A stretch of DNA of 34,875 nt, from NCBI GenBank assembly GCA_035516965.1, contig DATIZR010000074.1, forward strand, positions 1 through 34,875, given 5' to 3'. This DNA is from Nitrospirota bacterium. Its GTDB lineage: Bacteria > Nitrospirota > UBA9217. A program made the translations under genes and the position numbers. How positions within the stretch are numbered: position 1 is the first letter of the stretch; each line of letters begins with the position of its first letter. The notes beneath the pieces were generated by a model. That model had not been told where the DNA came from. It made no database searches and saw only the letters and a list, made by a program, of their open reading frames with translations. Shown here piece by piece: positions 770 to 7,406 of the stretch.

Positions 770-1987
770 TCATTTCTTAGGTATTATCTGCACAAATCGT
801 TTTTTCCCAACCCGTAACGTGTAAAAACTGGTTGCCGACAGCTCCGCATTCACATCCATGATAGGCTGTTGGTTCACCTCCACAGCACCCTGTTGTATCA
901 GCCTTCTAGCCTCTGAGTTGCTCGTTACTGTCCCCGATGTTGACATAAGCTTGACGAGTTTCATGGTTTCGCCTTCCCAGACAACCTCAACAACGGGGAT
1001 ATTCTCCGGCATATCTTTCTTGCTAAAGACCTTCTCAAATTCTGCTCGGGCCCTTGCTCCTTCACCGGGACCACAGAACCGATCAACCAGCTCGGCGGCA
1101 AGCTGTTTTTTTGCTTCCATGGGATGGAGCAAACCGTTTTTCACGTCAGTATTGATCTTGTCCAGTCTCGGCAGAGAAACAGAACTGACCAGCTCATAGT
1201 ACCGCATCATGAGGGTATCGCTCGTCGACATGATTTTCCCGAATACTTGCCCGGCGGGCTCACTGATCCCGATGTAATTCCCGAGGCTCTTGCTCATTTT
1301 GTTCACACCGTCGAGCCCTTCGAGGAGCGGCATCATCACGATGCACTGCGGTTCCTGGCCATATTCCTTCTGGAGTTCCCGGCCTACGAGGAGATTGAAC
1401 TTCTGGTCTGTTCCGCCAAGCTCCACATCCGCCTTCAGCATCACCGAGTCGTAACCCTGGATGAGCGGATACAGGAACTCATGGATGCTGATGGGAAGCT
1501 CGGACTGATAGCGCTTCTTGAAATCCTCCCGCTCCAGCATGCGCGCAACCGTGTGTCTCGCGGCAAGCTCGATCATCTGCTCCGCCGACATCTTCGACAT
1601 CCACTCGCTGTTGAAGACGATCGACGTCCTGGCAGGGTCGAGGATTTTGTTGATCTGCGCCTGATAGGTCTTCGCGTTCTGGACGACCTCTTCCTTCGAC
1701 AGATGTTTTCGCGTCTCGGACTTTCCGGTCGGATCGCCGATCATGCCGGTAAAATCCCCGATCAGGAAAACAACCTCATGTCCGAGCTCCTGGAATTGAC
1801 GCATCTTGTTCAACAGGACCGTATGCCCCAGATGGATATCAGGCGCTGTCGGATCGAATCCTGCCTTGACACGCAGTGGTATCCCTGTCGAAACTGACTT
1901 TTCGAGCTTTTTAAGGAGATCCGCTTCAATAATGATCTCTACGGCTCCGCGCTTTATGATATCCAGTTGTTCTTTGGCCGAAATCAT
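770..1987 (-). CDS. tyrS: Tyrosyl-tRNA synthetase
   Basis: TyrS charges tRNA-Tyr with tyrosine in the cytoplasm. The 405-residue product is a full-length class I synthetase. The HIGH-type signature is HLGH at 52-55, inside the [13 protein letters not shown] block. The KMSKS loop is at 230-234, and the GGTDQKFN block at about 191-198 belongs to the active-site fold. The C-terminal ~65 residues ([15 protein letters not shown]) form the S4 RNA-binding domain that contacts the tRNA. The ATG start follows a purine-rich AGAGAAG stretch. It lies 18 nt downstream of cbiX on the same strand and probably shares its promoter. The stop codon is ~30 bp from the distal rRNA promoter. This is the TyrRS type with about 400 residues and a C-terminal S4 domain. 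Nothing is missing. Confidence 0.97.
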
Positions 1988-2005: not shown

Positions 2006-2371
2006 TCAGTTATGTTTCTTCGCGAGTTCAAGCACGATATCCGTCATGAGCGGATGAGATCCCACCAGCTCCGTGACCGTGATCCCGACATCCGGATACT
2101 GCATTCGCGCCTTCTCGATGAGCGCGGGCAGATCCTTCGTTACATGGGCTCCAGGCTGTAAAAAGAACGGGACCACCACGATCATCTCGGCCCCCTCCTT
2201 CACGCATTGCTCCAGCACTTCATCGGGGCCCGGCTTCATATACTGAAGAAATGCATAGGCCACGATCTCGAAGCCGCCGCTGCCTTTTACTTCGGAAGCG
2301 ACCCGCCGGATCGTTCCGTCGGCATCCACATTTCGGCTGCCATGTCCCAGAAGTATGACTGCTTTTTTCAT
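2006..2371 (-). CDS. cbiX: Sirohydrochlorin chelatase, short CbiX/SirB type
   Basis: The 121-residue product matches single-domain CbiX(S)/SirB chelatases, which insert Co or Fe into sirohydrochlorin for cobalamin or sirohaem. The N-terminal ILLGHGSRN motif puts the first metal-binding His at residue 10. The second lies in VPFFLQPGAHVTKDLP at about residue 76. The reading frame extends upstream to 2521, but the family begins at MKKAVILLGHGS, and the promoter found at 2400-2428 puts transcription start near 2393, so 2371 is the start. The Shine-Dalgarno is weak. A four-codon mini-ORF (ATG near 2383) ends in a TGA overlapping the start ATG, which might allow coupled initiation. tyrS follows after 18 nt. 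No other cobalamin or sirohaem genes are in the window, so the metal cannot be assigned. Confidence 0.88.
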   Translation of the reverse strand: MKKAVILLGHGSRNVDADGTIRRVASEVKGSGGFEIVAYAFLQYMKPGPDEVLEQCVKEGAEMIVVVPFFLQPGAHVTKDLPALIEKARMQYPDVGITVTELVGSHPLMTDIVLELAKKHN

Positions 2372-2428: not shown

Positions 2429-2482
2429 TTCAGAATGAAGTTTATCACGCCGATCGGGGGGGGCAGGCCCGCTGTCAATAAT

Positions 2483-2513
2483 AAAAAAGGGGCGGGTTTG
2501 CATCCCACCCGCC
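2483..2513 (-). terminator. Rho-independent terminator of the ribF transcription unit
   Basis: The stem GGCGGGT (2491-2497) pairs with ACCCGCC (2507-2513) around a 9-nt loop. On the minus strand the stem is followed by CC and a T-rich tract (TTTTTTATTATT, about 2477-2488). It lies ~30 bp past the microprotein stop and closes the ribF-microprotein unit. Confidence 0.8.
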
Positions 2514-2543: not shown

Positions 2544-2609
2544 CTATTTCTTCTTGGCCGATTTCTTTGTCGACGCCTTTTTGGTTCCGCATTTTTTACC
2601 ACATGCCAT
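2544..2609 (-). CDS. Lys/Cys-rich 21-residue microprotein downstream of ribF
   Basis: A 22-codon frame (ATG at 2607-2609, TAG at 2544-2546) encodes 21 residues: 9 Lys, 2 Cys, and otherwise only Met, Gly, Ala, Ser and Thr. The N-terminus reads MACGKKCG, so the two Cys are four residues apart. Lys pairs recur every five residues (5/6, 10/11, 15/16, 20/21). It is preceded by one of the best Shine-Dalgarno sequences in the window, AAGGGGGTGA, 7 nt before the ATG, with only one mismatch to the 16S 3'-end complement. It lies 45 nt after the ribF stop and 30 nt before a clear terminator, so it has the full layout of a translated last gene of an operon. I do not recognise a family. The composition resembles the basic tails of histone H1-like proteins, which bind nucleic acid, and the CxxxC could bind metal. 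Both are inferences. Confidence 0.6.
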   Translation of the reverse strand: MACGKKCGTKKASTKKSAKKK

Positions 2610-2654
2610 ACGATCTTCACCCCCTTTCGCAATGCAGGTGCTGTCTGTATCAGA

Positions 2655-3581
2655 TCAGAGAACCTTCAGCACCTCCTGCGCATCCTGCACATCCTTGCGG
2701 ATCTGCTGCACGAGGGCGTCCGCGTTCGAGAATTTCTCTTCTCCTCGCAATCGTTTCACGAAAGAGACATCCATCGACTTTCCATAAAGATCCTCATTAA
2801 GATCGAACAGATAGACTTCGATCGATACCGGTCCGCTGTCAAAGGTGGGCCGTATGCCAATGGATGCCACCCCTTTGATATCGCACCCGCCAACATGGGC
2901 GATGACAGCGTAAACCCCGATTCCCGGGATCAGTTCATTCGCGGTCTTCAGATTCGCCGTTGGGAAACCGAGTGACTGGCCCCGATGCGCGCCGTGCACG
3001 ACCTCGCCTTCAATGGCATAGTGCCGTCCGAGCAGGCGGGCCGCCTCTTCCACACGCCCGTTCACCACAAGATCACGAACCGCCGAACTACTGACAACAA
3101 CGCCGTCCACCCGGACCGGCTCGATGACTCCGACCTCAAATCCATAGGCCTGACCCATCCTTTTCAGAGACTCGATGCTGCCCTCCCGGCCCTTGCCAAA
3201 GGCGTAGTCATAGCCGACATACACCTCTCGCACCCCGAGCAATTTGTGAAGCACTTCACGGGCAAAATCCTCTGGGTTCTGATCGGCGAAGGAGCGGTTA
3301 AAATGAGCACAGACAACGACCTGGATACAGGCTGCCTCAAAGAGGCGCATTTTCCCGTGAAAGGTATTCAAGAGGCGCGGAGACCGCTCGGGTGCCAGCA
3401 CTTTGAGCGGATGCGGTTCGAAGGTAAACGCAATACTCGTCCCCTTGATCCTTGTTGCGCGCTCAACGACCTTTTGAAAGATCGCCTGATGCCCAAGATG
3501 AACACCGTCGAAGTTCCCGAGCGTGAGTACCGGGTTTGGAAGCCGCTCGGTATAGTTTTTTACGCCGCGGATGATCCTCAT
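2655..3581 (-). CDS. ribF: Bifunctional riboflavin kinase / FAD synthetase
   Basis: RibF phosphorylates riboflavin to FMN and adenylates FMN to FAD in the cytoplasm. From the ATG at 3579-3581 the product is 308 residues, the usual family length. The N-terminal nucleotidyltransferase half has TLGNFDGVHLGHQ (its HxGH motif) and the later SSSAVRDLV block. The C-terminal kinase half has GQSLGFPTANL and the IEVYLFD strand. The open frame extends 23 codons upstream to 3650, but that extension contains a good promoter (3591-3619), so the shorter start is preferred. The consequence is a very short or absent 5' leader. It is transcribed with the microprotein at 2544-2609 and ends at the terminator at 2483-2513. 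Confidence 0.95.
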   Translation of the reverse strand: MRIIRGVKNYTERLPNPVLTLGNFDGVHLGHQAIFQKVVERATRIKGTSIAFTFEPHPLKVLAPERSPRLLNTFHGKMRLFEAACIQVVVCAHFNRSFADQNPEDFAREVLHKLLGVREVYVGYDYAFGKGREGSIESLKRMGQAYGFEVGVIEPVRVDGVVVSSSAVRDLVVNGRVEEAARLLGRHYAIEGEVVHGAHRGQSLGFPTANLKTANELIPGIGVYAVIAHVGGCDIKGVASIGIRPTFDSGPVSIEVYLFDLNEDLYGKSMDVSFVKRLRGEEKFSNADALVQQIRKDVQDAQEVLKVL

Positions 3582-3590
3582 TGCGCTGGG

Positions 3591-3619
3591 ATAATCGCAC
3601 ACTGTGACGAAATTGTCAA
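3591..3619 (-). promoter_or_regulatory. Promoter of ribF, predicting a nearly leaderless transcript
   Basis: On the minus strand, -35 TTGACA (3614-3619), a 17 bp spacer and -10 GATTAT (3591-3596). A start ~7 nt after the -10 would lie near 3584, within about 3 nt of the ribF ATG at 3581. No Shine-Dalgarno precedes that ATG, consistent with leaderless initiation. Confidence 0.5.
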
Positions 3620-3640
3620 CCTCGGCCTGCGCAAAAGGTG

Positions 3641-3670
3641 TTGACATCAAAACAAGCGCTGTGTTATAAA
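3641..3670 (+). promoter_or_regulatory. Promoter of the DUF1015 gene
   Basis: -35 TTGACA (3641-3646) and -10 TATAAA (3665-3670, 18 bp spacer) or TTATAA (3664-3669, 17 bp spacer). It fires rightward towards the gene at 3723, back-to-back with the ribF promoter; the two -35 boxes are 21 bp apart. Confidence 0.7.
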
Positions 3671-6145: not shown

Positions 6146-6212
6146 GACCTGACAGGGAGACAAAAAGGCAAGCTTTTCTCGGTGTCTCTGTGGCTGATTC
6201 TGGAGATTGCAT

Positions 6213-7406
6213 ATGGACAAGAAGACGATCGAAAAGGTGGACCTCAAGGGCAAGCGGGTGTTCATCCGTGCGGACTTCAATGTACCGCTCGACGAGAACG
6301 GCAACATCACCGACGATACGCGCATTCGTTCCACCCTGCCGACCATCAATTACGCCCTTGACGCGGGAGCGAAGGTGATCCTCGCATCGCACCTGGGCCG
6401 GCCCAAGGGCAAGCCGAGCCCGAAGTACAGCCTCGCGCCGGTCGCAACGCGCCTGTCACGCCTCCTGAGCAAGGAGGTCCAGTTCGCGAAGGACTGCGTG
6501 GGACCAGACGTGGAACACCTGGTCCAGGGCATGCGGCCCGGCGACGTGCTGCTCCTCGAGAACCTGCGGTTCCATGCCGAGGAGGAAAAGAACGATGAGG
6601 CCTTCTCCAGGGCCCTCGCCGCCTTCTCCGACATCTACGTGAACGACGCCTTCGGCACGGCTCACCGCGCCCATGCGTCCACCTATGGCATCACCAGGCA
6701 CGTCAGGTATTCCGTAGCGGGCTTCCTGATGAAGAAGGAGATCACCTATCTCCAGAAGACCGTGGCGAACCCGGTGCGCCCCTTCGTCGCCATCCTGGGC
6801 GGCGCCAAGGTATCGGGCAAGATCGGCGTGATCGAGAACCTCAAGAACAAGTGCGACAAGATCATCGTGGGCGGTGCCATGGCCTTCACCTTCATCAAGG
6901 CCCGCGGCCAGGAGGTCGGCGGCTCGCTCGTGGAAACCGAGATGCTTCCGATGGCGCAGAAGATACGCAAGAGCCTCCGCGAGAGCGACGTGAAATTCTA
7001 CCTGCCCGTGGATTTCGTCGTTGCCGAGAGCATGAATGACGGTGCGACGACCAAGATCGTCACCTCCCAGGAGATCCCCCAGGGGTGGGTCGGCCTCGAC
7101 ATCGGACCTGCCACGACGCGACTCTTCTCGGAGGCGCTCCAGGACGCGAAGACCATCATCTGGAACGGCCCCATGGGCATGTTCGAGAAGGACGCCTACT
7201 CGCGCGGCACATTCGCCATAGCGCGCGCGGTGGCCGACTCCTATGCGACGACGATCGTGGGCGGCGGCGACACCGACGTTGCCGTGCACAATGCCGGAGT
7301 GTCGGACAGCATCACCTTCATCTCGACGGGCGGAGGAGCCTCGCTGGAACTGCTTGAAGGCAAAGAGCTCCCTGGCCTTGCGGCGCTGACGGATGATAAG
7401 GAATAA
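6213..7406 (+). CDS. pgk: Phosphoglycerate kinase
   Basis: This enzyme transfers phosphate from 1,3-bisphosphoglycerate to ADP, the first ATP-forming step of lower glycolysis. It is 397 residues from the ATG at 6213, with GGAG 7 nt upstream; an in-frame TTG two codons earlier is less likely. The N-terminal substrate domain shows [13 protein letters not shown], then [10 protein letters not shown] and LLENLRFH. The C-terminal nucleotide domain shows [23 protein letters not shown] and the glycine-rich GGGDTDVAV and [14 protein letters not shown]. Length and motifs are typical. It lies 67 bp after gap; that gap contains a fragment (tctcggtgtctctgtggctg) of a dispersed repeat type seen elsewhere in the window. 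Confidence 0.98.

Follow-up and report, generated by a model that had tools for sequence, protein, structure and literature searches.

A 21-codon open reading frame (ORF) on the minus strand of the 34,875-nucleotide stretch of DNA analyzed here (the window) is, judging by comparison with its relatives, almost certainly a genuine, independently expressed gene of 20 to 40 codons that belongs to Nitrospirota, a phylum including nitrite oxidizers, sulfate reducers, and magnetotactic bacteria. Its relatives are under protein-level selection, as read from their substitution patterns, in at least seven families of the phylum. The features surrounding the gene in the window are as follows.

2544..2609, minus strand: microprotein gene, 21 codons plus stop, translation MACGKKCGTKKASTKKSAKKK; homologues in 23 other Nitrospirota genomes, with an excess of synonymous changes
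2617..2626, minus strand: Shine-Dalgarno site AAGGGGGTGA, 7 nt 5′ of the microprotein ATG
2479..2513, minus strand: intrinsic terminator, a GC-rich hairpin (GGCGGGTGGGATGCAAACCCGCC, at 2510-2490) plus a T-run, about 30 nt past the microprotein stop
2655..3650, minus strand: ribF (bifunctional riboflavin kinase/FAD synthetase), the upstream neighbor; Pfam FAD_syn (2e-46) and Flavokinase (8e-43)
2006..2371, minus strand: cbiX-like sirohydrochlorin chelatase gene, the syntenic neighbor beyond the terminator
770..1987, minus strand: tyrS-like gene, named from its sequence rather than by family search; syntenic, marking the far side of the interval

The window opens (positions 1-430) with the 5′ portion of a gene for 16S rRNA, recognized by eye, on the minus strand and downstream of tyrS.

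The first-pass annotation of the window had described an ORF with a good ribosome site, located 3′ of ribF and ahead of a terminator. All of these elements are seen in the window, beyond what chance would be expected to produce. Among the 332 ATG-initiated ORFs of 15 to 45 codons in the window, the microprotein ORF alone has a Shine-Dalgarno match of ≥7/8, and it alone has a Lys content of ≥35%. Across 200 windows simulated with a first-order Markov model, a mean of 0.99 ORFs per window had a ribosome site of ≥7/8, and 40%-Lys ORFs were absent from all of them. The Lys pairs, said to recur every five residues, do so roughly (KK at residues 5-6, 10-11, and 15-16); the last run is a KKK at residues 19-21.

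The genome carrying the window (G000) belongs to a family of 14 genomes, 12 of which encode the microprotein in the same place (ribF ... cbiX-tyrS); the remaining two (G012 and G013) lack a ribF match as well. Within the reach of the contigs, the genes run in the order gapA/DUF1015, ribF, microprotein, cbiX, and tyrS, with a convergent DUF1844 gene between the microprotein and cbiX in seven genomes, and a terminator-like hairpin follows the ORF in all 12 members. Relatives with an interrupted frame or a lost ribosome site had been named in advance as grounds for rejecting the gene. The relatives favored it: both the ORF and its ribosome site are retained, as is a terminator among the members of the same family, and the changes are mostly synonymous. 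The microprotein is apart from ribF in 4/12 genomes of the family, where the ribosome site and the terminator-like hairpin are still kept: several kilobases of other genes lie between the two on the same contig in G002, G004, and G005, and they are on different contigs in G006. The link to ribF is thus not general, since genes intervene in three genomes, the contigs differ in a fourth, and other families place the gene elsewhere; ribF was rejected as an operon partner on these grounds. cbiX is a weak candidate partner, its adjacency having been seen only in the family of the window. Close upstream of the own-family members, no strong promoter was found; the best candidate is TTGACT-17-TATACT, which in G008 and G011 lies about 150 nt 5′ of the gene.

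The convergent DUF1844 gene is present in G002, G003, G004, G006, G007, G009, and G010; none was observed in the corresponding interval of the window, G001, G005, G008, or G011. In G002, G004, and G006, the region 3′ of ribF contains a cluster resembling multiheme cytochrome genes (named from its sequence), which separates ribF from the microprotein in the first two. In G013, one of the two family genomes lacking a microprotein match, contig C44 carries a longer Lys-rich ORF beginning MAKRIAVKKKAMKKKATKKKAAKKK (L124, positions 6166-6330, minus strand; also L062), with Cys near its C terminus and a terminator-like hairpin 3′ of the ORF.

A short Lys-rich ORF with a terminator within about 10-40 nt resembles an amino acid attenuator, in which a leader peptide rich in one codon type precedes a terminator, and translation of its Lys or Cys codons would control the genes downstream. 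An attenuator, however, regulates a gene that lies downstream on the same strand, whereas the gene next to the microprotein is usually on the opposite strand: in the seven relatives with DUF1844 just named, there is therefore nothing adjacent to attenuate. In the window, moreover, the genes that follow (cbiX and tyrS) do not concern Lys or Cys, and selection acts on the protein sequence itself, the amino acids being conserved rather than the Lys codons alone, with no Rfam match. Contradicted by the gene order, the leader peptide reading is hardly tenable.

Substitutions were counted pairwise between members by the Nei-Gojobori method. Between G000 and G001, there are 6 synonymous and 3 amino acid changes on 12.3 and 50.7 sites, respectively (p 0.003); between G000 and G005, the counts are 14 and 6 (p 2e-6), and between G007 and G010 they are 4 and 1. 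Members outside the window's family behave similarly, with 5 synonymous versus 2 amino acid changes for G247/G229 (p 0.006), 9 versus 1 for G261/G275 (p 4e-6), and 10.5 versus 5.5 for G125/G381 (p 3e-4). G008 and G011, with 0 synonymous and 1 amino acid change, are a pair too close to tell. When G000 is compared with G001 or G005, the flanks of the ORF (40 bases on the 5′ side and 50 on the 3′ side) show near-random similarity, at 16-33% identity without gaps, which argues that the constraint acts on the protein. The short promoter-to-terminator unit would also suit a small regulatory RNA with an incidental ORF, but the free synonymous change with amino acids kept, the near-random flanks in G000, G001, and G005, and the lack of an Rfam family speak against it. 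We consider this explanation scarcely credible in view of the synonymous excess, though the RNA may have a second role. Synteny, synonymous excess, and ribosome-site conservation, used instead of similarity scores, offer a route to proving such genes in a size range where usual gene calling is blind; the high Lys content would, in addition, hide the microprotein from trypsin-based proteomics.

The distribution was established with iterated profiles over 396 Nitrospirota genomes, the best-scoring loci being opened by script and then read. Members occur in six further families: f11 (G247, G229, G337, and G159), f5 (G261, G275, G125, and G381), f33 (G265), f34 (G200), f21 (G277), and f13 (G100). 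The total of at least 24 of the 396 genomes is a lower bound because short, low-complexity profiles are insensitive, each having missed members that another found. Members are 21-40 aa long with no second domain (examples from outside the window's family are MSCKPGHKGAPCGTKKTAKKKKK and MACKSSAGSKSKCGTKKPATKKPAAKKK) and follow a common pattern: M-(A/S/P)-C, 3 to 9 residues, a second C, usually G-x-K-K, and a Lys-rich tail ending in Lys. Position 3 is Cys and the C-terminal residue is Lys in 24/24 members, the second Cys is found in all, the Lys content is 33-50%, and every member keeps a ribosome site (6/8 to 8/8 match). The members in G002 and G006 were recovered at the syntenic place by a screen on Lys content only, and both carry the Cys pair; the pair is therefore not merely an artifact of the search. 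In another Nitrospirota family, a short Lys-rich ORF devoid of Cys and starting with TTG (MATKKAAKKKTAKKKK; L050, positions 1498-1557, minus strand) has a ribosome site and a hairpin 3′ of the ORF.

The CxxxC spacing noted in the first-pass annotation is not general among the homologues, in which 3 to 9 residues separate the two Cys. Because the spacing varies in this way across the 24 members, a fixed single-chain zinc knuckle or a CxxCH heme site is unlikely. The same variability weighs against a metal-handling peptide, in which the mature (Ala/Ser)-Cys N terminus and the second Cys would bind a transition metal, with a secondary role for the Lys tail. Such a peptide would account for the invariant Cys at position 3 and the second Cys of all members, for the His found between the two Cys in several of them, and for the cbiX metal chelatase gene nearby in most own-family genomes, and Met removal would bring the first Cys next to the N-terminal amine; adjacent cbiX genes are, however, missing from the other families in the stretches read. 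We regard metal handling as improbable, ranking next after the ribosomal explanation considered below.

In G261, G275, G125, G381, G265, and G100, all outside the window's family, a promoter of the form TTGACA-17 nt-TATATT lies 28-40 nt 5′ of the ATG, and the ribosome site is of the AAGGAG type. The corresponding promoter in G200 is TTGACA-17-TATTTT, and G337 and G159 carry TATGATATAAT. Terminator-like hairpins follow some of these members, none being scored in G337, G200, G265, or G277. The neighbors vary by family and include ABC-2 transporter genes, radC-like and peptidoglycan-glycosyltransferase-like genes, and others (named from sequence only); no constant partner able to name a pathway emerged across families in the loci read. 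The gene is thus a unit complete in itself. A secreted antimicrobial or modified-peptide precursor would likewise be small, cationic, and Cys containing. Against such a precursor, the microprotein has no signal or leader segment and no constant modifying enzyme or dedicated exporter adjacent to it (ABC-2 genes are found only in G200, G229, and G247), and its position is kept throughout a family in the manner of a housekeeping gene. We judge this origin very improbable.

Pfam and NCBIfam yielded matches for none of the 22 members scanned at E values up to 1, and PHROGs gave none for the four Nitrospirota members tried. No Rfam family was found in seven loci. A 26-aa relative had no match in the PDB, where the family profile gave a single chance match (tau, E 5.3), and a literature search for the peptide strings had no match. 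The proposal of an unannotated gene type was borne out, in that the gene is a conserved protein gene without a match in family libraries. The further suggestions of the first-pass annotation, that the protein may bind nucleic acid or an acidic partner and that the Cys pair may serve metal or redox chemistry, are plausible. The members add to Nitrospirota a protein family that the libraries searched do not match.

The Cys at mature position 2, the second Cys, the polycationic C terminus, the good ribosome site, and the often strong promoter point toward a polyanion-binding peptide made in abundance. With somewhat less than even confidence, we favor a small polycation that would bind nucleic acid or another polyanion, its Cys pair forming a metal-bridged or disulfide link; binding is proposed from the composition and by analogy to the DNA-binding lysine-rich repeats of AlgP. 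The initiator Met would be removed, leaving an (Ala/Ser/Pro)-Cys N terminus; by an established rule, Ala, Ser, or Pro at position 2 should allow this removal. The Lys-rich tail, probably unstructured, would then bind its polyanion electrostatically, most likely rRNA or DNA and possibly polyphosphate. The Cys pair would link chains into a metal-bridged or disulfide dimer, and the link would double the charge and provide redox or metal control. An extended version, which we offer as speculative and improbable, would be a self-standing, highly expressed polycation in which the N-terminal (Ala/Ser)-Cys...Cys acts as a metal- or redox-operated link: two or more linked tails would condense DNA, rRNA, or polyphosphate, and once the link was broken the monomers would let go. 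If the mechanism holds, the microprotein would rank with the smallest proteins that bind chromatin or ribosomes, with the Cys pair as a simple, testable switch.

Lineage-specific ribosomal mini-proteins, which also include bTHX and eL41, provide the strongest rival: the microprotein would be a ribosomal or ribosome-associated protein, seated in rRNA and abundantly made. Its size, its basicity, and the strong promoter in several families fit, and bL37, a 24-aa ribosomal protein of actinobacteria that is similarly tiny, easily left unannotated, and lineage limited, furnishes in its mycobacterial form a precedent for overlooked proteins of this kind (PMC5876184). The microprotein differs from these proteins in its Cys pair, its lack of a PDB sequence match, and its low-complexity tail of variable length (21-40 aa overall), unlike a protein fitted in an rRNA pocket, and no ribosomal-protein operon was present at any locus read. 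We hold a ribosomal role to be unlikely, if less so than metal handling.

The favored polycation also invites comparison with the histone H1-like tails of AlgP, whose lysine-rich repeats bind DNA (PMC9239181), and PhaF, which are likewise rich in Lys, Ala, Thr, and Pro, probably disordered, and polycationic. The AlgP tail, however, is a long domain in a larger protein (a 154-aa KPAA-repeat region), whereas the microprotein is 21-40 aa in its entirety, carries an N-terminal Cys pair, and lacks the long Lys/Ala/Pro repeat joined to another domain that characterizes proteins of the histone H1-like/AlgP type. The Cys pair recalls the nickel hook that Ni-superoxide dismutase forms with its N-terminal Cys2 and Cys6, since the mature chain in the window would read A-C-G-K-K-C-G and so have Cys as its residues 2 and 6. 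Ni-superoxide dismutases combine His1, Cys2, and Cys6 with the SOD fold; the microprotein has Ala, Ser, or Pro at mature position 1 in place of His1, lacks the Pro and the SOD body, and does not keep the spacing among relatives, and it is not a member of that family.

Scanning 84,980 species genomes with a DNA pattern returned 25 loci. Twelve of them are short ORFs that are rich in Lys and have a K-rich tail: five in Nitrospirota, four in Rickettsiales, and one each in Buchananbacteria, Planctomycetota, and Omnitrophica. The others mostly fall in a different frame or within a longer ORF; two additional short ORFs, in Flavicella and Paenibacillus, look like chance. Plasmids gave no hits, and the three hits on viral contigs all lack the Lys-rich tail. 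The ORFs from the four groups outside Nitrospirota start MACG..CG and are short and Lys rich. The queries used were matched in full by 1/240 genomes of the phylum of the Buchananbacteria group and by 1/131 genomes of the Rickettsiales order, in each case the query-source genome. The family profile gave no full-length match in the Omnitrophica phylum (145 genomes) or the Planctomycetota phylum (149 genomes), where it missed the originating locus of each phylum too; four of the nine weak hits were opened. The similar ORFs are rare and sporadic in their groups, and homology beyond Nitrospirota is not claimed. Short Lys-rich ORFs outside the phylum may be convergent, and a comparable polycation may have evolved independently in Rickettsiales and in one genome each of Buchananbacteria and Planctomycetota. 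The four Rickettsiales metagenome-assembled genomes (L068, L071, L085, and L086) encode a microprotein of 18-23 aa (MACGCGCGTKK...) with a hairpin after the ORF; the block 5′ of the ORF, around TGTTTTAT.ATTAAA..GTGGGGCGG, is likewise similar among them.
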